Positions 21,575-46,125 of a stretch of DNA of 46,190 nt are shown piece by piece. A program made the position numbers and the translations under genes. The notes beneath the pieces are model-generated. The model did no database searches. It was given only the letters and a program-made list of their open reading frames with translations, and was not told the DNA's origin. This stretch comes from Candidatus Delongbacteria bacterium (lineage in GTDB: Bacteria; UBA4055), in NCBI GenBank assembly GCA_003252515.1, contig QKDR01000176.1:1-46190 (forward strand), read 5' to 3'. Each line of letters begins with the position of its first letter. Positions within the stretch are counted from its first letter, which is position 1.

Positions 21575-22444
21575 TTATCCTAAATATGCTCTCAAAGCTT
21601 TAGAGCGTGAAGTATGCCTTAATCTCCTGATAGCCTTTTCCTTGATCTGTCTTACGCGTTCTCTTGTCAGGCCGAACTTCGCCCCTATTTCCTCAAGCGT
21701 CATTGCCTGATCCTGGTCGATACCGAAATACAGCATGATAACTTCTTTCTCTCTCGGTGTAAGTGATTTTAAAGCTATCTCTATCTCTTCCCTTAACGAA
21801 TCATCAAAGAGCTGCTTATCCGGTGATGGAGATTTGTCTTCTTTCAGAACATCAAGCAGCCTGTTGTCCTCTCCCGGTGCGAATTCCGCGTCGATCGAAA
21901 GGTGTTTTCCCGAAATTTTAAGAGTATCGGTTACTTCAAGTTCGGTAGTCTCAAGCACTTCGGCGATCTCCTCGGGAGTCGGTTCTCTCTCGAATTTCTT
22001 TTCAAGGTGTGTCATTGTTCTTGTAATCTTGCTTAGCGCACCTACTTTATTCAGCGGAAGCCTGACGACTCTCGATTGCTCTGCCAGTGCCTGAAGTATA
22101 GACTGCCTGATCCACCAGACCGCGTATGAAATAAATTTAAAACCTTTCGTTTCATCGAACCTGTGAGCCGCCTTAATAAGACCCATGTTTCCTTCATTAA
22201 TAAGGTCGATAAGGCTCATACCCTGGTTCTGATACTGCTTTGCGACAGAGACTACAAAACGCAGGTTGGCCCTGACAAGCTTTTCAAGTAATTTTTCCTT
22301 GTCGGGACCTTCCTCATGCATCTTTCTGGAAAGCTCTATCTCTTCTTCCGGAGTGAGGAGGTCTTCCTCCCCGATCTCCTGAAGATATTTATCTAGTAAC
22401 TGATTTGACCTGACCGGTCCGTTATTTCCGCTGCTGGATGCCAA
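21575..22444 (-). CDS. rpoD: Primary RNA polymerase sigma factor (sigma70, short form)
   Basis: 289 aa. Region 1.2 begins at [20 protein letters not shown]; region 2 includes [20 protein letters not shown] and [19 protein letters not shown]; region 3 includes [17 protein letters not shown]; region 4 ends with the helix-turn-helix [20 protein letters not shown]. Region 1.1 and the large non-conserved insert of E. coli RpoD are absent, as in Bacteroidota primary sigma factors. The start is TTG at 22442-22444: AGGAGG lies five bases before it, and an ATG overlapping the leader is out of frame. It follows degP by 35 bases in the same direction. It should read the TTGnnn-N17-TATATT promoters found here. 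Confidence 0.93.
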
Positions 22445-28402: not shown

Positions 28403-29656
28403 TTATTTTTTGTTCACCTGAACTGTATCCTTTATTTCGGACTTACTGTTGGATGCTATTATGTAATAGAATTTCTTTGATTCGGAAACTGAAACAGTAT
28501 AACTGTTGGTTCCTACTGTGGTTACCAGACTGAAAGTTCCGTAAGGATTATCAGAAGAATATACTATGTAAGAAGTTGCTCCAGATACCGCGTCCCAGCT
28601 GACTGTCAGATCAGAACCGCTGACAGAAGTGGCTACGTTCTGAGGAGCTTCAGGAGTAACGGCAGGTGCTTCAAGATGTATTACACCGACAGCATAATGA
28701 GCCATGCTTGAATAACTTCCTCCCCATGTCATCGAATGAGCTGTCTGACTTGTGTTCTGATCCCAGGTATCTCTCAGATATACTGTTGATGATGTATCAT
28801 CATATCCGATCCCGAGCATAGTGTGCCCCTCGACCTGAATCAGAACGGGATTTCCGTTATCGATCTCGGTCTTGAACTGCGCATAAGTAAAACCTATTGT
28901 ATTCCCGTTATATCCGTAAATATATTGACTGTAATTGTCTATTACCGTAACTCCGCAGGCTTCATAGAACAGTCTCATTCCGTGGCATCCGTCCCTCTGT
29001 GAAGGTTCGCATCCTGTATAGTCGTAGAGCGCCGTACCGTTAGTATAATTATAGAAAGTCGTCGATCCGTCCTGGTTCTGATAGTTATACCACTGGTTCG
29101 TACCCATATAGTCGGCGGTACATGGCTGACCGCTTGAAATATCATGCTGGGTCCAGTTACCGTAGTATGGATCTACATAAGAAAGATAGCTGCTCCAGAA
29201 ATCATCTGAATGCCCTTTTGTACTTCTGCCGTCAACATCCAGAGCGGAAGCCGATACCGGGCACTCGCCCGTATCCGTATGAGAAGCCTGTGCATTCCAT
29301 ACAGCGTTCGTCATCGGTTGAACGCCGCTGTTGGCCGGTCCGGTATAAATATCGGGGTATCCTGAATTGTCGAAATAACCCGCCTGCATAGCTACTGATG
29401 TAGCGCTGCAGCCGTAACTCCAGTCGTACGCCGGAACATTATCAAGATAGTTTACTACACCAGGTACTTTTTCTTTCGGAAGTTCCGTGTTTGGCGGCGG
29501 AAGTACTTTAGGCGGCCTTCCGTCTATTATGATCTCATCGATCAGATTACCGTTTTCATCAACGAATGTTCTGTTAACTTTTACTGCGAAAGCTCCTGCT
29601 GACAAGCTCAGAATGATGATGACGCAGATGAGCCTTTGAATTTCTTTTACATACAT
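28403..29656 (-). CDS. Secreted C39-like cysteine peptidase with C-terminal FnIII module
   Basis: 417 aa from the ATG at 29656, which has GGGAGGA six bases upstream and gives a clean signal peptide (MYVKEIQRLICVIIILSLSAGAFA). The catalytic domain (about 65-330) shows Cys83 in YGCSATSVAMQAGYFD, His278 in VEGHTMLGIGYDD and Asp296 in LRDTWD, the order seen in papain-like C39/C70-type peptidases. Cys129... style extra cysteines (ECPVS, GCEPSQRDGCHG) could form disulfides. The C-terminal about 65 residues (APQNVATSVSGSDLTVSWDA onward) closely match the end of the gingipain-like protein at 7,253, including SYIVYSSDNPYGTF. Substrate unknown. It is a single-gene unit with its own promoter. Confidence 0.75.
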   Translation of the reverse strand: MYVKEIQRLICVIIILSLSAGAFAVKVNRTFVDENGNLIDEIIIDGRPPKVLPPPNTELPKEKVPGVVNYLDNVPAYDWSYGCSATSVAMQAGYFDNSGYPDIYTGPANSGVQPMTNAVWNAQASHTDTGECPVSASALDVDGRSTKGHSDDFWSSYLSYVDPYYGNWTQHDISSGQPCTADYMGTNQWYNYQNQDGSTTFYNYTNGTALYDYTGCEPSQRDGCHGMRLFYEACGVTVIDNYSQYIYGYNGNTIGFTYAQFKTEIDNGNPVLIQVEGHTMLGIGYDDTSSTVYLRDTWDQNTSQTAHSMTWGGSYSSMAHYAVGVIHLEAPAVTPEAPQNVATSVSGSDLTVSWDAVSGATSYIVYSSDNPYGTFSLVTTVGTNSYTVSVSESKKFYYIIASNSKSEIKDTVQVNKK

Positions 29657-31514: not shown

Positions 31515-31847
31515 ATGGCCGGCATGAACATGGATATGAGCTCTTTGTTGAAACAGGCTCAGAAAATGCAGGAGGATATGCAGAAGTCACAGCAGATGCT
31601 CGAGACTCAGGAAGTCGAGGGAACTGCGGGAGGCGGAATGATAAAAGCACGTATGAATGGGAAAAAGAAACTCTTATCGATAAAGATAGACCCTAAAATT
31701 ATAGACCCGGAAGATTCAGAAGGGCTGGAAGATCTGATCCTTGCCGCTGTAAATCAGGCTTCTGAAGAAGCTGATAAGCTTTCCGGCGACGAAATGTCAA
31801 AGATAGTTCCTAAACTTCCGGACGGATTCAAGATACCGGGATTTTAA
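31515..31847 (+). CDS. ybaB: YbaB/EbfC nucleoid-associated protein
   Basis: 110 aa. A Met-rich N-terminal helix (MSSLLKQAQKMQEDMQKSQQ) and the signatures VEGTAGGGMIKARMNGKKKLLSIKI identify the YbaB family of small dimeric DNA-binding proteins that coat the nucleoid. AAGGAG lies seven or so bases before the ATG. It sits 18 bases after dnaX and shares one base with recR (TAATG), the usual three-gene arrangement. Confidence 0.95.
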   Translation: MAGMNMDMSSLLKQAQKMQEDMQKSQQMLETQEVEGTAGGGMIKARMNGKKKLLSIKIDPKIIDPEDSEGLEDLILAAVNQASEEADKLSGDEMSKIVPKLPDGFKIPGF

Positions 31848-32446
31848 TGGGGAATCACTCCGAAATACTTCAAAATCTTATAGACTCTTTCGCGAAACTG
31901 CCGGGAATAGGCAGAAAATCTGCAAGAAGGATATCATATTATCTGATCAATTCGGACGAAAAAGTCTCAAGAAGACTTTCTGAGGCCGTAACTGAGGCTA
32001 AGAACAGGCTCGGATTATGCCGGATATGCAGAAATCTTACCGAGCATGAGATCTGCGATATATGCAGTGACGGGAACCGCGATAAGTCTCTGATCTGCAT
32101 AGTTGAGAACTTCAGCGATCTTTATATGTTCGAAAAACTTAATATCCACCGTGGTGTCTATCACGTTACCGGCGGTCTTATCAGTCCGCTTGACGGCATC
32201 GGACCTTCTTCCCTGAATCTTAATTCTCTTCTTGAAAGAATCACCGGTGACGGAGTGAAAGAGATAATTATCGGGCTCAACCACTCGGTCGAAGGAGATA
32301 CTACGGCACTTTATATTTCTGAGAAACTGAAAGACAGCGGAGTAAAGATCACCAGGCTGGCGACTGGCATTCCGATAGGAGGGGAGATCGAATTCACTGA
32401 CGAGATCACTTTGAAACAGGCGTTCGTGGAGAGGAGAAACTTCTGA
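31847..32446 (+). CDS. recR: Recombination protein RecR
   Basis: 199 aa, normal length. The helix-hairpin-helix segment LPGIGRKSARRISYYL, a four-cysteine zinc module (CRICRNLTEHEICDIC), the Toprim domain (ICIVENFSDLYMFEK and GLNHSVEGDTTALYI) and the C-terminal RLATGIPIGGEIEFTDEITL are all visible. RecR acts with RecO (and RecF) to load RecA at gaps. It is translationally coupled to ybaB. Confidence 0.96.
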   Translation: MGNHSEILQNLIDSFAKLPGIGRKSARRISYYLINSDEKVSRRLSEAVTEAKNRLGLCRICRNLTEHEICDICSDGNRDKSLICIVENFSDLYMFEKLNIHRGVYHVTGGLISPLDGIGPSSLNLNSLLERITGDGVKEIIIGLNHSVEGDTTALYISEKLKDSGVKITRLATGIPIGGEIEFTDEITLKQAFVERRNF

Positions 32447-32476
32447 AACAGCAGAAAATATTATTAATCACTTTGC

Positions 32477-32505
32477 TTGACAAACCGTATGACGGTTGTT
32501 ATTTT
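32477..32505 (+). promoter_or_regulatory. Promoter with a 15-bp inverted repeat filling its spacer, upstream of the aminotransferase
   Basis: TTGACA (perfect consensus, 32477-32482), 17 bases, TATTTT (32500-32505). The spacer contains AACCGT-ATG-ACGGTT (32483-32497), a perfect 6-bp-arm inverted repeat placed exactly between the two hexamers, where a dimeric repressor or a spacer-bending activator could bind. The same bases plus the following T run (32501-32507) can also be read as an intrinsic terminator of dnaX-ybaB-recR. Both readings may be true. Confidence 0.55.
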
Positions 32506-32541
32506 TTCACCGGTTTATAACATTAAACGGAGTAAAAAAGA

Positions 32542-33735
32542 ATGGGAAAACTCACACTCTCTTCAAGGAATGAAATAATGCAGTCCAGCCCGATAAGGAA
32601 ACTGGCTCCTTACGCGGTAAAAGCCAAAAACGAAGGGGTTCATGTCTATCATCTCAACATCGGACAACCCGATATAAAGACCTCTCCGGATATGATCGAG
32701 GCTTATCACAATATTCCGCCTGTCATAGAATACGGTCCCAGCGAGGGTATTCTTTCCTACAGAAAAAAACTTGTGCAATATTATAAAAAGGTTAATATCG
32801 ATGTAGACGAATCTAATATATTCATAACTACAGGCGGAAGCGAAGCGATAATCTTTACTCTTCTTTCTGCTCTTTCTCCCGGAGAAGAAGTCATAATCCC
32901 GGAGCCTTTCTACACGAACTACAACGGTTTTGCTGTTATGGCAGGTGTAAAAGTCGTACCAATAACTACGAACATTGATAACGGTTTCGACCTGCCTTCA
33001 ATAAGCGAATTCGAAAGCAGACTTACAACGAAGACAAAAGCCATCGTGATCTGCAATCCAGGCAACCCGACAGGTGCGGTTTTCTCAAGGGAAAGACTTC
33101 AGGAGCTTGTGGATTTCGCCAGAAAGCATAATCTTTACATAATTTCCGACGAAGTCTACAGAGAATTCACTTACGATTGTCGGGCGACATCTATCCTTCA
33201 GTTCGAAGATTTCGAAGAAAATGCCGTAATGATAGATTCCACATCAAAACGATACTCCGCGTGCGGTTCAAGGATCGGTAACATTGTGACCCGCAATAAA
33301 GAGCTGCTCGCGCTTATCCTGAAATTCGGACAGGCAAGGCTGTGTCCGCCAAGTGTAGACCAGCAGGCTGCTGAAGCAGCAGTTGACACGCCTGACTCTT
33401 ACTTCAGTGAAGTCATAACGGAATACACAAAAAGAAGAAATACGGCATACAGAGAGCTTTCAGCAATTCCCGGCGTCACTGTCCCGATGCCTAAAGGCGC
33501 ATTTTATATGGTTGTCGGACTGCCGGTTGACGACGCGGACGATTTCGCAAGATGGCTGTTGTCTGATTTCAGGCATAATAACGAAACCGCAATGGTCGCT
33601 CCGGCTTCAGGATTCTACGCTACTCCCGGACTCGGTAAAAATCAGATAAGGATAGCTTACGTGCTTAAAGAAGAAGATATTGTTAAAGCAGTCAATATAA
33701 TCAGGCTGGGATTGGAAGAATACAAGAATAGGTAA
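32542..33735 (+). CDS. Class I/II PLP-dependent aminotransferase (aspartate aminotransferase-like)
   Basis: 397 aa. Fold-type I motifs are HLNIGQPDIKTSP, the NPGNPTGAVFS segment, SDEVYREFTYD and the PLP-lysine Lys236 in DSTSKRYSACGSRIG; a C-terminal arginine region (NQIRIAYVL) binds the substrate carboxylate. The group includes aspartate aminotransferases of subgroup I-gamma and related enzymes; the amino-acid preference is not certain. GGAG lies nine bases before the ATG. It heads a three-gene set with a small membrane protein and a YkgJ protein. Confidence 0.88.
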   Translation: MGKLTLSSRNEIMQSSPIRKLAPYAVKAKNEGVHVYHLNIGQPDIKTSPDMIEAYHNIPPVIEYGPSEGILSYRKKLVQYYKKVNIDVDESNIFITTGGSEAIIFTLLSALSPGEEVIIPEPFYTNYNGFAVMAGVKVVPITTNIDNGFDLPSISEFESRLTTKTKAIVICNPGNPTGAVFSRERLQELVDFARKHNLYIISDEVYREFTYDCRATSILQFEDFEENAVMIDSTSKRYSACGSRIGNIVTRNKELLALILKFGQARLCPPSVDQQAAEAAVDTPDSYFSEVITEYTKRRNTAYRELSAIPGVTVPMPKGAFYMVVGLPVDDADDFARWLLSDFRHNNETAMVAPASGFYATPGLGKNQIRIAYVLKEEDIVKAVNIIRLGLEEYKNR

Positions 33736-33748
33736 ATACGGGGTATAG

Positions 33749-34012
33749 ATGTTCGGCAGCACTCCGAAAAAGAGAAAATTCTCATATACGACTACAAAAA
33801 GCCTTAAAACCGACACCAGCAGACCTTTAAAGGAAAGAATGAAATTAGGTTCTTATTCCTCTCAGGGAATAAAATCCTCAAAAAAGAAAATGCTGTTTTA
33901 CGTTATACTTCTTCTTATTGTACTGGCGTTTATGCTCAACTACGGTTTCAGGACCATTAACAGCGTTAATATAAAAGTAAACGAGAATGAACTGGAAAAA
34001 GTAAATGGATAA
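33749..34012 (+). CDS. Small single-pass membrane protein
   Basis: 87 aa, not recognised. A basic Ser/Thr/Lys-rich N-terminal half (about 1-49) precedes one hydrophobic helix (about 50-68, MLFYVILLLIVLAFMLNYGF) and a short tail. The start lies 13 bases after the aminotransferase and the end overlaps the next gene by eight bases, so it is likely a real, co-translated gene. No function can be given. Confidence 0.6.
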   Translation: MFGSTPKKRKFSYTTTKSLKTDTSRPLKERMKLGSYSSQGIKSSKKKMLFYVILLLIVLAFMLNYGFRTINSVNIKVNENELEKVNG

Positions 34013-34511
34013 TAATCAGTATTATTTTGACGCGTATTTCGAATTCATCAAATATGTAGATGACAAAATTAAAGACCTGGAAAAGAAACATTCGAAAGAT
34101 ATTGTCTGCAACAAAGGATGCAGCTCTTGCTGCCTTGACACGACTATTCTTCCTATCGAGTTCTTTTCAATTGTTTCTATACTGAAAGATAAGATCTCTC
34201 CGGAAATCACAAAAGAAAGCTGCGCAATGTTAAAGAACTCTTTATGCCAGATATATGAGTTCAGACCATTAATATGCAGAACTCACGGGCTGCCTCTTGC
34301 TTATGGTGAGGATGAAGACCCGCTTTCAAAAAGTATTACTTTCTGCGACATGAACTTCACGAAAAGAATCCCCGTATTCAATTCAAAGAACATTCTTGAT
34401 ATGGACGAATTGAATATCGAACTGGTAAGACTGAATGAGAAATTCGTTAAATCATTCGGAAAAGAGCTTCCGGAGAGAATAGATCTGAAAGAAATAGTGA
34501 ACTATCTGTAA
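34005..34511 (+). CDS. YkgJ-family cysteine cluster protein
   Basis: 168 aa. The cysteine pattern Cys35-x3-Cys39-x2-Cys42-Cys43 (CNKGCSSCC), then Cys73, Cys81 and Cys91 in YEFRPLICRTHGLPL and Cys114, is that of the YkgJ/UPF0153 family, predicted to bind zinc or an iron-sulfur cluster. Function is unknown. It overlaps the preceding membrane protein gene by eight bases. It converges on the acyl-CoA synthetase gene with only seven bases between the two stops and no clear terminator. Confidence 0.82.
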   Translation: MDNNQYYFDAYFEFIKYVDDKIKDLEKKHSKDIVCNKGCSSCCLDTTILPIEFFSIVSILKDKISPEITKESCAMLKNSLCQIYEFRPLICRTHGLPLAYGEDEDPLSKSITFCDMNFTKRIPVFNSKNILDMDELNIELVRLNEKFVKSFGKELPERIDLKEIVNYL

Positions 34512-34518
34512 TCTCCGG

Positions 34519-37203
34519 TCACAGATTCATCTCTACTTCAACGGTCGTATCATTATTTCCTTCAAGTATGTCAAAACCTTTCTTCTTAAAAAGCGATATC
34601 ATTCTGTGATTATCTGAAGTGGTCTGGGCGTAAATTTTCTTCATTCCCCATTTCCTGGCTATTTCGATACAGAATCCGGTAAGAATTCCGCCCAGATCTT
34701 TATTCTGCCATTTATCTGTGATAAGTACGGCATATTCCACGGTCTGCTGTTCGGGGTCAGAGATCAATCTTCCCACGCCGATCAATTTTCTTTCGTCCCC
34801 TGTTTTCATCTCGGCAACTATAGCTATCTCCCTGTCATAATCAATATAGCAGTATCTCGTAGCGACGTCGTGGGATGACCATTGAAAAAAATATCTGAAC
34901 CTTGAATAAATAGATTCTTTAGAGCAGCTTCCGAGCAGTTCAAGCCATAAAGGTTCATCCTCGGGTTTTATAGGTCTAAGAGTAATTTCCTGCCCGTCAA
35001 GCTGAATACCTTTTCTTACGAATTCTTCAGGATAAGGTCTCAGAGCGAGGTGAGAATACTTTTCTGTCTGCTTGATCTCGGGTGAAAGATCTACAATTAC
35101 CCGGGCGTCAAGCGCAAAAACACCCTCAGGACCAACTGCAAGCGGATTGATATCAAGTTCGGTTATCTCAGGATAATCGGCAGCAAGATATGACAGTCTG
35201 ATCATCACCTCAATAAGCTTATCAATGTCCGCAGGAGTTTTCCCGCGGTACCCTTTTAAAAGCGGCCATATCTTAAGGTTTTCCAGCATCCTTCTGGCCA
35301 GCCTTTCGTTAAGAGGCGGAAAACCGAGGGACCTGTCCCCGAAAAGTTCTGCTGTAACTCCACCCGCACCGACAAGTATCACGGTCCCGAATATACTGTC
35401 CTTTTTGATCCCCAGAATTATCTCGGTAGAATCTTTCATTCTTATCATTTTCTGTACCGTTACTCCAAAAATCAACGCATCTGGCTTTGCTTTTTTTGCG
35501 TTCGCAACGATCTTTTCGAACGATAATGCGGCTGTCTCGGAAGAGTTAATATCTACTATAACTCCGCCCACGTCTGTTTTATGAGTTATATCAGGTGAAT
35601 TTATCTTGAATACTACAGGGAAACCGATACTTTCGGATATCTTCACGGCTTCATCTTTATCGGCAGCGGGAACCGGAACTGTCACGTTTATATCATACGC
35701 CGCAAGAAGTTTCTTTGAATTCTCTTCTGAAAGTATATTTACATTATTCTTAACGATCGCTTTGAATTCGTCCCTTATCTTTTTCCTGTCAAGAGAGAAT
35801 TCTACAGGTATGTCTTTAGGCGTTTCGTAAAGTGTTTCAAGATTTCTCGAATACTCGACTAATGTCATGAACGCCCTTACCGCCTGTTCCGGTGTTTTAT
35901 AGGCCGCGACCCCGTATTCGTTCAGTATTTTCAAACCTTCTTTCATGTTCTTTCCGCCGAGCCACGATGCCAGAACAGGTTTCTTCGCCGCTGACGACAA
36001 TTCGCCTACAGCCTTTGCGGTCGCATCGGCGTTAGTCATCGCCTGAGGAGTAAGTATGACCAGAACAGCGTCGACGTTCTTATCGTCAAGTACTATCTTG
36101 ACAGCTTTGGCGATCCTTTTCGATCTGGCGTCACCGAGGACATCCACCGGGTTCCCGTGGGACCACTGGGCTGGAAGATTCTCGTTCAGAAGTGCGATAG
36201 TTTCATCACTAAGTTTCGCCAGTTTACCTCTCGAGCTGATCAGTGCGTCAGTAGCCATCACTCCGGGTCCGCCGGCATTAGTGACGATACCGAGCTTTGC
36301 GCCTTTTGGGATCTTGTTCCTGGCTATCAGCTCCGTACAGTCGAATATCTCGCCTATATCGTATACTCTCGCGAGACCGGTCCTTCTGAATGCCGCATCG
36401 TAAACATTGTCCTCGGACGCCAAAGCTCCGGTATGGGAAGCAGCCACAGCGGCAGATTCAGGAAATCTTCCGGCTTTGTAAACTATTATAGGCTTAGTTC
36501 TGGCGAAAGCCCTTGACGCCGTCATGAACTTTCTTGCGTCGGCAATTGATTCAACATAAAGAATTATTGATCTTGTGCTTTCGTCCTCGCCGAAATAATC
36601 AATAAGATGTCCGTAATCAACATCTATCGTGTTTCCTATCGATACGAAACTGGAGAAACCGATCTTTTCCTCGTTCGCCCAGTCAAGTACTGATGTGCAT
36701 AGCGCTCCGGACTGCGAAATGAAGGCAATATTCCCTTTTCTCGGGAAATCAGGAGCGAAGCTGACGTTCAGATTAAGTTCCGGTACTATTATACCGAGAC
36801 AGTTCGGTCCGATTATCCTCATGTTCCTGAACTTTGAACGCTCTTCGACAATCATCTTCTCCAACAGGGCGCCTTCTTCTCCGGTCTCCCTGAAACCTGA
36901 TGACATAATAATAACCCCGTTGATACCGGCCTCTCCGCATTCTCTTACCTTGTCGGGGACTTCTGTTGCGGCGGTACATATTACAGCAAGATCCGGTGTT
37001 CTGGGCAGACTTTTTAGATCAGGGAAACAGGGCATTGCCATCACTGCTTCGAATTCCGGATTTACTGGATAAACAACACCTTTAAATCCGGCGGAGACTA
37101 TATTGGTCAGTACTTTACCGCTAACGCTGTTGGGATTCGATGACACGCCGACAAGAGCGATTCTTTTCGGTTTAAAAATACAGTCGAGATTATGTACGTT
37201 CAT
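34519..37203 (-). CDS. ADP-forming acyl-CoA synthetase fused to a GNAT acetyltransferase
   Basis: 894 aa. Domains: CoA-binding Rossmann domain (about 5-130); succinyl-CoA-synthetase-like flavodoxin domains (about 150-460) with the phospho-histidine motif ASHTGALAS (His257); ATP-grasp domain (about 470-700, DITHKTDVGGV and ELDINPLAVG); and a C-terminal GNAT domain (about 725-890, GVGRLISDPEQQTVEYAVLI and the acetyl-CoA loop region near DKWQNKDLGGIL). ADP-forming ligases make acetate and ATP from acetyl-CoA in fermenters; the same fusion in enterobacterial Pat/PatZ acetylates protein lysines with an inactive ligase part. Here His257 is kept, so the ligase may work. The ATG has AGGAG nine bases upstream and lies 19 bases after the tRNA-Phe terminator. 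Confidence 0.88.
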   Translation of the reverse strand: MNVHNLDCIFKPKRIALVGVSSNPNSVSGKVLTNIVSAGFKGVVYPVNPEFEAVMAMPCFPDLKSLPRTPDLAVICTAATEVPDKVRECGEAGINGVIIMSSGFRETGEEGALLEKMIVEERSKFRNMRIIGPNCLGIIVPELNLNVSFAPDFPRKGNIAFISQSGALCTSVLDWANEEKIGFSSFVSIGNTIDVDYGHLIDYFGEDESTRSIILYVESIADARKFMTASRAFARTKPIIVYKAGRFPESAAVAASHTGALASEDNVYDAAFRRTGLARVYDIGEIFDCTELIARNKIPKGAKLGIVTNAGGPGVMATDALISSRGKLAKLSDETIALLNENLPAQWSHGNPVDVLGDARSKRIAKAVKIVLDDKNVDAVLVILTPQAMTNADATAKAVGELSSAAKKPVLASWLGGKNMKEGLKILNEYGVAAYKTPEQAVRAFMTLVEYSRNLETLYETPKDIPVEFSLDRKKIRDEFKAIVKNNVNILSEENSKKLLAAYDINVTVPVPAADKDEAVKISESIGFPVVFKINSPDITHKTDVGGVIVDINSSETAALSFEKIVANAKKAKPDALIFGVTVQKMIRMKDSTEIILGIKKDSIFGTVILVGAGGVTAELFGDRSLGFPPLNERLARRMLENLKIWPLLKGYRGKTPADIDKLIEVMIRLSYLAADYPEITELDINPLAVGPEGVFALDARVIVDLSPEIKQTEKYSHLALRPYPEEFVRKGIQLDGQEITLRPIKPEDEPLWLELLGSCSKESIYSRFRYFFQWSSHDVATRYCYIDYDREIAIVAEMKTGDERKLIGVGRLISDPEQQTVEYAVLITDKWQNKDLGGILTGFCIEIARKWGMKKIYAQTTSDNHRMISLFKKKGFDILEGNNDTTVEVEMNL

Positions 37204-42165: not shown

Positions 42166-45100
42166 TCATTCTAATTTGACATCGAGATTCAGTCCGTAAA
42201 GCTCTTTTATAAGGACATTGAAAGCTTCCGGTATACCCGGTTTAGGTATTTCAAGTCCTTTTACGATCGCTTCATATACTTTTGTTCTTCCGTTCACATC
42301 GTCTGATTTATAAGTCAGCATTTCCTGCAGAATATGAACAGCTCCGTAAGCTTCAAGCGCCCATACCTCCATCTCACCGAACCTCTGACCTCCGAACTGA
42401 GCTTTACCTCCGAGAGGCTGCTGGGTGATCAGAGAATAAGGTCCGATAGATCTCGCGTGAAGTTTGTCTTCAACAAGATGTGAAAGTTTAAGCATATAAG
42501 TAACGCCTACTGTGATCTCCTGAGCGAATTTCTCGCCTGTCAGTCCGTCATACAGAACAGATTTGCCTGACGAAGGCAGCTTTGCCTCCTTAAGTTTTGA
42601 TTTTACATCCTCAAGCGAAGCTCCGTCAAAAACCGGCGTAGCGTATTTCTCTCCCAGAGTTCTTCCGGCCCATCCGAGATTCGTTTCAAAAATCTGGCCA
42701 GGGTTCATCCTTGAAGGCACACCGAGAGGATTGAGTATTATATCGACAGGTGTTCCGTCCTCTAGATACGGAAGGTCTTCAACCGGTACGATCCTGGAAA
42801 CAATACCTTTGTTACCGTGCCTGCCGGCCATTTTATCACCTATCTGGATCTTTCTCTTCTTGGCGATATAACATTTTACGAGCTGAATGATACCCGGAGG
42901 CAGCTCGTCGCCGTACAGCAGACGCTGTCTGTCTCTCTGGAAATCAACATTCAGCTGATCGACTACCATAGAATAATTGGTAATAATTTCAGTGATCTTT
43001 TCGTTAATGGCATCGTCGTCAGTCCAGTCCGTTGCGATATTGGAATCTTCTATGTTCAGTTTAAGGAAAGTTTTCTGACTGATCTTTTCGCCTTTTCCCA
43101 GAACTACTACTCTTGTTCCTTTGTCTTTCTGCAGACATACGATATCCGAAAGTATATTTTTATCTTTCAGAAGAGTGAAAAGCTCTGTAGATCTTTCCTG
43201 TTCGAGAACGGCCAGATCCTCGTCGTATTTCTTTTTGAGCTTTTTCATTTCGTCTTTTTCTTTGCTCTTACGGGACGCATCTTTTTTCTTTCTGGAAAAG
43301 ACTTTCGTTTCGATCACGATACCTTTGTCACCCGGAGGTACTCTTAGGGATGCGTCTTTGACTTCACCCGCTTTCTCACCAAAGATCGCCTTAAGAAGTT
43401 TGTCTTCAGGCGTTAGGTTGACCTCTCCTTTCGGAGTGACCTTACCGACAAGAATGTCCCCGGGGTACACTTCAGCTCCGATCCTGATAATACCGTTGTC
43501 GTTCAGATTCTTTGTAGCTTCCTCGCTGACGTTAGGTATCTCTCTGGTAAGTTCTTCCTCACCCCTTTTTGTCTCTTTTACACTGGTCTCGTATTCTTTT
43601 ATATGCAGAGAAGTGAAAATATCTTCTTTGACCATCCTCTCGCTGAGGATTATAGCATCCTCAAAATTATATCCGTTCCAGGACATATAAGCAACGAGAA
43701 CGTTTTTTCCTAATGCAAGTTCTCCGTTCTCTGTAGCGGCACCGTCAGCCAGAACATCACCGGGTTTGACTTTGTCGCCGGCTTCAACTAAAGGAACGTT
43801 ATTTATACAGGTATCCTGATTGGTCCTGAAGAATTTTACGAACCTGTAATACACTTCGTCAGGATCTTTAGGATCTTTTTTCTTGGTGACCTTAACTGTA
43901 CAGCCCTTAGCATCAATACTTGAAACGATACCTTCGACAGTCGATTCGACCATTGCCTTTGAATCTTTCGCGATGGTCTTCTCCATTCCTGTTCCGACGA
44001 TCGGCGCTTCTGTCTGCAGGAGCGGTACTGCCTGTCTCTGCATGTTGGAACCCATCAGAGCCCTGTTGGCGTCATCGTTCTCAAGGAACGGTATGAGGCT
44101 CGCTGCCGCTGAGACCACCTGTGTAGGAGTACAGTCCATATAGTTTATCTTGTCACTCGTCTGGATCGGAAAATCGCCTCTGTACCTTGTCAATATGGTC
44201 TCAGGTCTCAAGAAATTCCCTTTATCGTCCAGCGGAGCGTTTGCCTGAGCGATAATGTTCCTGTCCTCTTCATCAGCGGTAAGATATTCAATATCGTTGG
44301 TCACTTTACCTTTTTTCACTTTTCTATATGGAGTTTCAATAAAACCCATGTCGTTCACTCTTGCGTATGCCGCGAGGGATGAGATAAGACCGATATTCGG
44401 CCCCTCAGGCGTTTCGATCGGGCACAGACGTCCGTAGTGAGTATAATGAACATCTCGAACCTCGAACCCGGCTCTGTCCCTTGTCAGACCTCCGGCACCC
44501 AATGCTGAAAGTCTTCTCTTATGGGTGATCTCAGCCAGCGGGTTCACCTGGTCCATGAACTGTGACAGCTGGTTGGTACCAAAGAACGCGTTCAGCACAC
44601 TGGAAAGGGTTTTAATATTTATAAGGTCTGCGATCGCGAGTTCGTCTTCAGGCTTTGCAAGCGACATTCTTTCCTTGATCGTTCTGCTCATTCTTGAAAG
44701 AGCTATCCCGAACTGATTCGCCAGCTGCTCGCCTACTGTCTTGATCCTTCTGTTCCCGAGATGATCAATATCGTCAACTATCCTCTTTCCGTTCTTTATA
44801 TCCAGAACTTCCTGAACTATAGCTATGATATCGAAATCAGTGATAAGGATAGTGTCCAGGTATGTTTCTCTTATTTTTTCGAAAAGGTCTTTTTTATCCT
44901 CGTCCTTTGCTTTCTCAAGAGCTTTCACAACCTTATCAACCGGAAAGTACTGATAATTATCCTGTGAAACTTTCAGCCTGACCATTCTTTTTTTATTCAT
45001 TCTTTTAAAATAAGCCAGAAGGTCCTCGATCTTATGCCCCATCTTCTGATTGATCCTGTACCTGCCCACTTCTCCGAGATCGTAACGTTTGTCGTCAAAG

Positions 45101-46125
45101 AACATCCTGTCGAAATGCTTTCTTGCAGTATCAATATCAGGTGATTCGGTAGATCTGAGCTGCTCATAGATATACATCAGGGCGTCATCCTGATTAGCTG
45201 TGATATCTTTATTCACTGTATTGTATAAAAGATTGAATTTAAGTCTGTCTTTTGCATTGACAAGGATCACTGAACTTACACCGTTCTCATATAACAATTC
45301 CAGATGACCGGATGTCAATTTTGTTCCTGTTGCCAATATAACCGGCTGCCCCTGCTGACCTTTTTCATTACTTTTTGATCCCGGAATGATAATTTCCTTA
45401 AAAAGGATCCTTCCAGCCAGTTCCGTGGAACTTTTTTTCGTGATCTTTACTTTCTCATACAGATCGAACATCCCGAAAATCTCTTCATTCGAAGAAAATC
45501 CCATCGCTCTAAGGAAAATAGTTACGGGGAACTTCTTCTTTCTGTCAATATAGACCTGCATAGAATCATTGATCGTCGTCTCGAATTCAAGCCATGATCC
45601 CCTGAACGGGATTATCTTTGCCGAAAATAGTGTTGTGGAATTTGGATGAACCCTGGATGAGAAAAATGCTCCTGGAGATCTGTGAAGCTGTGTAACGATG
45701 ACCCTTTCAGCGCCGTTTATAATAAAAGTGCCTTTCGGGCTCATCATCGGTACTGTACCAAAGTAAGTCTCGGACTCTATTGTCTGCTGATATTCATCTG
45801 AATCATCTGCTTTTTTTGACAATCTCAGTCTCACTTTCAAAGGCGCGCTGTATGTCGTTCCTATCTCCTGACACTCTACGACTGAATACTTGGGCTGACC
45901 GACGGAATAATCAATATATTCCAGAAGGTATTTCTCTCTTGTATCAGTTATCGGAAAAGTATTTCTGAAAGCCTGATGCAGACCGGAATTTCTTTTCTTG
46001 TTGCCTTTTGCGCTTTTCTGAATAAATTTATCGAATGAATGTACCTGAAGGTCCAGAAGATTCGGCATTTCGAGCACATCGTCGATCTTTGAGAAAGTTA
46101 TTCGTTTATTTTCGTTCTTCTTCAA
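42166..46125 (-). CDS. rpoB: DNA-directed RNA polymerase subunit beta
   Basis: 1319 aa. The rifampicin-pocket region reads TNQLSQFMDQVNPLAEITHK followed by RRLSALGAGG, and the catalytic-core motifs GDKMAGRHGNKG and GGKAQFGGQRFGEMEVWAL are intact. A lysine-rich insert (about residues 965-1010) matches the variable region between these. The start is TTG at 46123-46125 with AGGAGG seven bases upstream; upstream in-frame codons reach a stop without an ATG, and the next ATG would remove 19 conserved-looking residues (ITFSKIDDVLEMPNLLDLQ). Rifampicin contact residues look wild-type apart from small changes (N518V and P535A by E. coli numbering), as judged by eye. Confidence 0.98.
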   Translation of the reverse strand: MKKNENKRITFSKIDDVLEMPNLLDLQVHSFDKFIQKSAKGNKKRNSGLHQAFRNTFPITDTREKYLLEYIDYSVGQPKYSVVECQEIGTTYSAPLKVRLRLSKKADDSDEYQQTIESETYFGTVPMMSPKGTFIINGAERVIVTQLHRSPGAFFSSRVHPNSTTLFSAKIIPFRGSWLEFETTINDSMQVYIDRKKKFPVTIFLRAMGFSSNEEIFGMFDLYEKVKITKKSSTELAGRILFKEIIIPGSKSNEKGQQGQPVILATGTKLTSGHLELLYENGVSSVILVNAKDRLKFNLLYNTVNKDITANQDDALMYIYEQLRSTESPDIDTARKHFDRMFFDDKRYDLGEVGRYRINQKMGHKIEDLLAYFKRMNKKRMVRLKVSQDNYQYFPVDKVVKALEKAKDEDKKDLFEKIRETYLDTILITDFDIIAIVQEVLDIKNGKRIVDDIDHLGNRRIKTVGEQLANQFGIALSRMSRTIKERMSLAKPEDELAIADLINIKTLSSVLNAFFGTNQLSQFMDQVNPLAEITHKRRLSALGAGGLTRDRAGFEVRDVHYTHYGRLCPIETPEGPNIGLISSLAAYARVNDMGFIETPYRKVKKGKVTNDIEYLTADEEDRNIIAQANAPLDDKGNFLRPETILTRYRGDFPIQTSDKINYMDCTPTQVVSAAASLIPFLENDDANRALMGSNMQRQAVPLLQTEAPIVGTGMEKTIAKDSKAMVESTVEGIVSSIDAKGCTVKVTKKKDPKDPDEVYYRFVKFFRTNQDTCINNVPLVEAGDKVKPGDVLADGAATENGELALGKNVLVAYMSWNGYNFEDAIILSERMVKEDIFTSLHIKEYETSVKETKRGEEELTREIPNVSEEATKNLNDNGIIRIGAEVYPGDILVGKVTPKGEVNLTPEDKLLKAIFGEKAGEVKDASLRVPPGDKGIVIETKVFSRKKKDASRKSKEKDEMKKLKKKYDEDLAVLEQERSTELFTLLKDKNILSDIVCLQKDKGTRVVVLGKGEKISQKTFLKLNIEDSNIATDWTDDDAINEKITEIITNYSMVVDQLNVDFQRDRQRLLYGDELPPGIIQLVKCYIAKKRKIQIGDKMAGRHGNKGIVSRIVPVEDLPYLEDGTPVDIILNPLGVPSRMNPGQIFETNLGWAGRTLGEKYATPVFDGASLEDVKSKLKEAKLPSSGKSVLYDGLTGEKFAQEITVGVTYMLKLSHLVEDKLHARSIGPYSLITQQPLGGKAQFGGQRFGEMEVWALEAYGAVHILQEMLTYKSDDVNGRTKVYEAIVKGLEIPKPGIPEAFNVLIKELYGLNLDVKLE

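Follow-up and report, generated by a model that had tools for sequence, protein, structure and literature searches.

Vegetative promoters of the sigma-70 type have the form TTGACA-N17-TATAAT, and the operators of dimeric repressors can lie in promoter spacers. Promoters activated by MerR-type regulators have an over-long spacer of 19-20 bp, and those of Bacteroides carry a -33 element. The promoter consensus TAnnTTTG is described as Bacteroidetes-specific (PMC6414381).

We analyzed a putative promoter upstream of aat in a 46,190-nt stretch of DNA from a Candidatus Delongbacteria bacterium; this whole stretch is called the window below. The aat promoter has the same -35 sequence and the same 17-bp spacer as the sigma-70-type vegetative promoters, but its -10 element carries a T at position 5, and TA(t/a)nTT is common in this genome. 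With the Bacteroidota TAnnTTTG it has in common the TA, two free bases and TT of the -10 element, while a TG after TANNTT was seen in just one of the 31 sampled promoters of this genome (that of the window gene at 37203). As in the spacer operators of dimeric repressors, a perfect dyad stands between the -35 and -10 elements; here, however, the dyad is unconserved and occurs exactly only once in the genome. The locus also resembles the intrinsic terminators of this genome in having a hairpin followed by a T run, but the hairpin is weaker than most of those found and is bulged, and the T run coincides with the conserved -10 element and its flank. A MerR-type promoter was rejected, the spacer here being 17 bp.

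The aat promoter and its class in the genome

The putative promoter is located in the 95-bp gap between recR and aat (32447-32541) and reads TTGACA, AACCGTATGACGGTT, GT and TATTTT (Table 1). The sequence-only reading had described AACCGT-ATG-ACGGTT as a perfect inverted repeat occupying bases 1-15 of the 17-base spacer; every base and coordinate of this description matched, the repeat being of the 6+3+6 form. The nearest named relatives of the recR protein were a Candidatus Delongbacteria record (83% identity) and a UBP11 record (79%); the two named Candidatus Delongbacteria records that we encountered are both metagenome assemblies. For the aat protein, the best solved relative was 2gb3, named aspartate aminotransferase. 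An Rfam scan of 32300-32700 identified no RNA family up to E = 1.

Table 1. Coordinates of the features at and around the aat promoter
Feature	Position	Strand	Basis or remark
recR, upstream gene, 199 aa	31847..32446	+	TIGR00615; Pfam RecR domains
TAATC upstream element	32465..32469	+	In 6 of the 8 footprint aat promoters
-35 hexamer TTGACA	32477..32482	+	TTGAC in all 8 footprint aat promoters
Terminator-like RNA hairpin, 10 pairs, one bulge	32478..32501	+	-7.4 kcal/mol; TTTTTT (32502-32507) next
Inverted repeat AACCGT-ATG-ACGGTT in the spacer	32483..32497	+	In the window species alone among the 8 compared
ATGAC, local copy of the spacer core AWRWC	32489..32493	+	Footprint
-10 hexamer TATTTT	32500..32505	+	Footprint; T run extends to 32507
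Predicted 5' leader of ~30 nt, GGAG at 32529-32532	32512..32541	+	Start predicted from the -10 element
aat, PLP-dependent class I/II aminotransferase, PRK07568 type	32542..33735	+	NF005744, 582.8 bits (cut-off 389)

To describe the promoters of the genome we used a 277-kb sample (11% of 2,522,814 bases) consisting of the window and 20 further contig stretches from this genome. A simple script that takes the longest open frame served as gene caller, so that gene starts are approximate. The upstream set contained 92 gaps that precede a called gene and are 50 bases or longer. The pattern TTG-N20-TANNTT had 33 matches in these 92 upstream regions, while 15 alternative spacings gave 1-8 matches each. 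When flanks were included, the 15.5 kb of upstream sequence contained 31 matches, as compared to 11 sense and 17 antisense matches in 251.9 kb of coding sequence. Among the promoter counts given here, 33 is the full number, 31 demands 10 flanking bases and 32 omits the window's own promoter. TA-N-AAT boxes at the N20 spacing numbered 2 in the same sample, against 33 for TANNTT. Shuffles in the spacing, promoter, gene-end, leader and dyad tests were plain letter shuffles, which do not preserve dinucleotides.

In the aat promoter TTG and TANNTT stand exactly 20 bases apart upstream of a gene, which places it in this class, and six promoters of the class were found in the window. The spacing peak indicates that 32477-32505 has the common promoter form of the genome. 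Judged from the sampled upstream regions, that form is a -35 element TTGac, a 17-bp spacer and a -10 element TA(t/a)nTT. Set against the promoter reading, TTGAC-N17-19-TANNTT was found in 11 of the 92 upstream regions, but 4 of these regions matched when read as reverse complements too, the shuffles giving 0.7. We put the probability that 32477-32505 is the promoter of aat, belonging to the genome's common class TTG(ac)-N17/18-TAnnTT, at about 0.85. The promoter proposed by the sequence-only reading was supported by the genome-wide spacing peak together with the phylogenetic footprint of hexamers and spacing described below.

Transcription is predicted to begin near 32512, by RNA polymerase carrying a sigma factor of the sigma-70 type, and the resulting aat leader would be about 30 nt long. 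A sigma-70 factor of 289 aa is encoded in the window (21578-22444, minus strand), in which regions 1.2, 2, 3 and 4 are present and a region 1.1 would hardly fit; it is close to RpoD/SigA and lies below the NCBIfam equivalog cut-offs in the rows compared. This factor is a plausible partner of the promoter class. A short primary sigma is typical of Bacteroidota, and our literature search on the Bacteroidota sigma found nothing. These counts provide sequence evidence for a Candidatus Delongbacteria promoter form with TTGac, a 17-bp spacer and TA(t/a)nTT with T at position 5. In a literature search for 'Delongbacteria' and 'promoter' the titles among the matches listed were on other subjects, from which we do not claim absence from print.

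Conservation of the aat promoter across the phylum

The phylum set consisted of only 13 genomes, and aat was found in 11 of them, with no match in G003 and G010 at E 1e-60. We identified the pattern TTGAC-N7-AWRWC-N6-TATTTT before aat in 8 of the 11 genomes (the window genome, G001, G002, G005, G007, G009, G011 and G012). The pattern had 9 matches in the 13 genomes, 8 of them the aat promoters, and its backwards control had 1. Since it was derived from the 8 aat promoters themselves, only its rarity elsewhere counts as a test. recR directly precedes aat in six of the eight footprint genomes. In the other two, G007 and G012, aat is found elsewhere, behind other genes, and the promoter, the T run and TATTTTTTC are kept. 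G004 and G006 had no match to the footprint pattern; by eye, TTG-N21-TATATT could be picked out upstream of aat in both, weak evidence as it is. In G008 the recR-aat gap is just 48 nt long and the motif is absent, indicating that the gene can do without the promoter motif.

Between G001 and G002 the recR-aat gap differs at 2 of 99 bases (97/99 identical), while the bases of recR and aat differ by 14-16%. A comparison of ~21 kb from G001 and G002 gave identities of 66% and 75% at third codon positions in the two stretches. Eight other gaps could be aligned, and seven of them had 76-94% identity and one (42 nt) had 100%, with the reservation that some of the long 'gaps' may hold genes owing to the simple gene caller. 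The comparison argues strongly for constraint on the recR-aat gap region, and this constraint would extend past the promoter hexamers. Taken as a whole, the recR-aat gap (L006, L007) was more alike in the two genomes than all 7 other compared gaps longer than 42 nt.

The spacers were also identical at 17 of 17 positions in G001/G002 and in G009/G011, despite a coding divergence of 11-16%. When identical promoters were counted once (G001 = G002, G009 = G011), the 6 distinct spacers had two invariant columns; this was reached in 13 of 20000 shuffles, a count that ignores kinship. Further upstream, TAATC was found at the same distance from the -35 element in 6 of the 8 promoters (window, G001, G005, G009, G011 and G012), G002 having TAATT at this position and G007 being without the element. 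TAATC was rejected as a gene-specific element, with one-mismatch matches at many places and one exact match in its own genome (C84).

NCBIfam gave no match for either of the two genes 3' of aat. The second gene after aat in the window (34005-34508) was recognized by Pfam as a CxxCxxCC gene (PF03692), and a similar CxxCxxCC protein was seen by eye after aat in G007 and G012 (L109, 8244-8777; L110, 7709-8242). The aat and CxxCxxCC genes seem to be linked, as the pairing is still there in these two genomes, where recR is elsewhere.

The spacer dyad is not conserved

Phylogenetic footprinting, a check put forward by the sequence-only reading, divided its proposal: hexamers and spacing were kept, but the dyad was kept in 0 of the 7 other promoters, AACCGT-N3-ACGGTT being absent from all of them, the congeners G001 and G002 included. 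The spacer itself is constrained in the relatives, though the dyad is not. The search for further palindrome sites in the genome, also put forward there, gave no second exact site. In the genome, which is 95.9% complete, AACCGT-N3-ACGGTT occurs exactly only here; three sites differ from it by one mismatch, one in a tRNA-Ser gene and two in open frames, and none of these is at a promoter. From this we infer that the promoter can most likely work without the AACCGT/ACGGTT dyad, which occurs in this species alone among those compared and has perhaps no function.

That the dyad arose by pure chance, the promoter needing hexamers and spacing alone, is the explanation toward which we lean. Perfect 6+3+6 repeats are about as frequent in the window as expected at random, 16 being found as compared to a mean of 12.3 (sd 2.6) in 15 sequences from a first-order random model, and those with at least 3 G/C per arm numbered 6 in the window and averaged 6.1 over 15 random sequences. 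The lack of the dyad in the congeners is also in agreement with chance. Less easily explained is its exact layout: a random 17-nt spacer of the same composition holds a 6+3+6 repeat with a probability of 0.0014, and the exact layout in one of the 6 window promoters has a probability of ~0.9%, before allowing for other noticeable layouts. When repeats with 6-base arms and loops of 3-8 bases were counted wherever they lay in the promoter, they were present in 4 of 31 sampled promoters and in 5.2% of spacer shuffles. Dyads recur, moreover, among the aat promoters, since 5 of the 6 distinct ones carry a dyad with 5 or more exact pairs, where null rates were 6-16% each, against 9 of the 32 other promoters of the genome (28%, their own shuffles giving 18%). 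This recurrence hints that the dyads in the aat promoters may not be accidental, but the 5/6 count overstates independence because the lineages are related. A second perfect 6+3+6 repeat, AACAGTATAACTGTT, was noted at 28493-28507 within a reverse-strand C39-peptidase-like gene.

The same recurrence bears on an explanation that we consider unlikely, in which a dimeric regulator of aat binds the spacer palindrome and blocks or helps polymerase, with half-sites turning over between lineages. It is consistent with the location of the recurring dyads inside the promoter and with the unchanged spacers of G001/G002 and G009/G011, as well as with GACNT-N5-ANGTC, which is common to G005, G007, G009 and G011 in one register (the variable pair is T:A in three and A:T in G007). 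However, the sequence and start of the dyad vary, the start being 7 in the window, 13 in G001/G002 and 2-3 in G005/G007/G009/G011; G005 also carries a dyad starting at -2, and in G012, where the variable pair is broken, no dyad passes. The 32 other promoters also exceed their shuffles in dyads, and the window dyad is without a second exact genomic site. A GACWT/AWGTC regulon was rejected, as TTGACWT-N5-AWGTC had 25 matches in the 13 genomes and the backwards control had 60. A search with AACCGGTG-N7-11-CACNGGTT found matches only at the aat promoters of G001 and G002.

Pfam analysis of the full set of 32 called window genes recognized no dedicated one-component regulator, and 4 of the 32 were without any family; the matches included a sigma factor, genes for core RNA polymerase and YbaB, a DNA-binding family. 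Weighing against the spacer-binding dimeric regulator suggested from the layout are an unconserved dyad, the lack of a second exact site and no recognized dedicated regulator in the window, though the spacer is constrained in the relatives. The YbaB gene is located two genes upstream (31515-31847). RpoB, of 1319 aa (42169-46125, minus strand), shows split domain matches, with Rpb2_1 spread over 23-508 and Rpb2_2 in three stretches, possibly owing to a lineage insertion.

We regard it as quite improbable that a dedicated regulator binds inside the aat promoter spacer with AWRWC and the hexamers fixed and the dyad specific to each lineage. Under such an arrangement three genera would have kept the hexamers and their spacing together with the AWRWC core of the spacer, and the lineage dyads would be GACNT-N5-ANGTC in G005/G007/G009/G011, AACCGGTG-N9-CACNGGTT around the -10 element in G001/G002, and AACCGT-N3-ACGGTT in the window. 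If true, this would be operator turnover within a fixed promoter.

The terminator-like hairpin

We doubt that the same bases serve both as an intrinsic terminator for recR and as the start of aat transcription. The RNA hairpin, UGACAA.CCGU/ACGGUUGUUA, has 10 pairs and one bulged A and includes five -35 bases and the TA of the -10 element, and its stem stands directly before TTTTTT. Intrinsic terminators do appear to be in use in this genome: of 61 gene ends, 15 folded to -10 or better, a number that includes both sides of two convergent gaps, as compared to 0 of 61 shuffles, with one shuffle per gene end. Just 1 of the 61 shuffled gene ends reached -7 or better, and when the hexamers were held fixed, 10 of 400 plain shuffles reached the -7.4 kcal/mol of the hairpin. 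On the other hand, the hairpin ranks 18th of the 61 gene ends, 17 of which fold more stably, its stem is bulged with few G-C pairs, and when a 53-nt segment was folded, dinucleotide shuffles were as stable in 16 of 200 cases. Among the 10 other aat leaders G011 alone was comparable (-7.8) and the remaining 9 were between 0 and -2.1; G009, a close relative of G011, was without a comparable fold. Two of seven recR-aat gaps, those of the window and G011, folded to -7 or better.

The T run is kept in G007 and G012 without recR upstream, and G001, G002 and G005 have just four T after the TA. Since promoter and T run are kept where recR is not adjacent, the T run belongs to the -10 region, and the terminator look would come largely from the -10 sequence. 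Judged from these promoters, the T run by itself is no evidence of a terminator; at its place after the hairpin it would be the -10 element plus the downstream flank. The case for a recR terminator is weak, with the T run a conserved part of the promoter, the hairpin missing in 9 of 10 other leaders and 17 of 61 gene ends more stable, though the hairpin might still act as a weak terminator in this one species. Of the earlier suggestion that 30 bases end one transcript and both start and control the next, only the start found support. In AT-rich genomes with a TATTTT -10 element caution is needed, as a promoter with a small spacer dyad resembles a terminator. Our literature search on overlapping terminators and promoters found no usable case. 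Within the predicted leader, a short dyad, GTTTATAACATTAAAC, at 32513-32528 adjoins the GGAG ribosome site and could pair in RNA.
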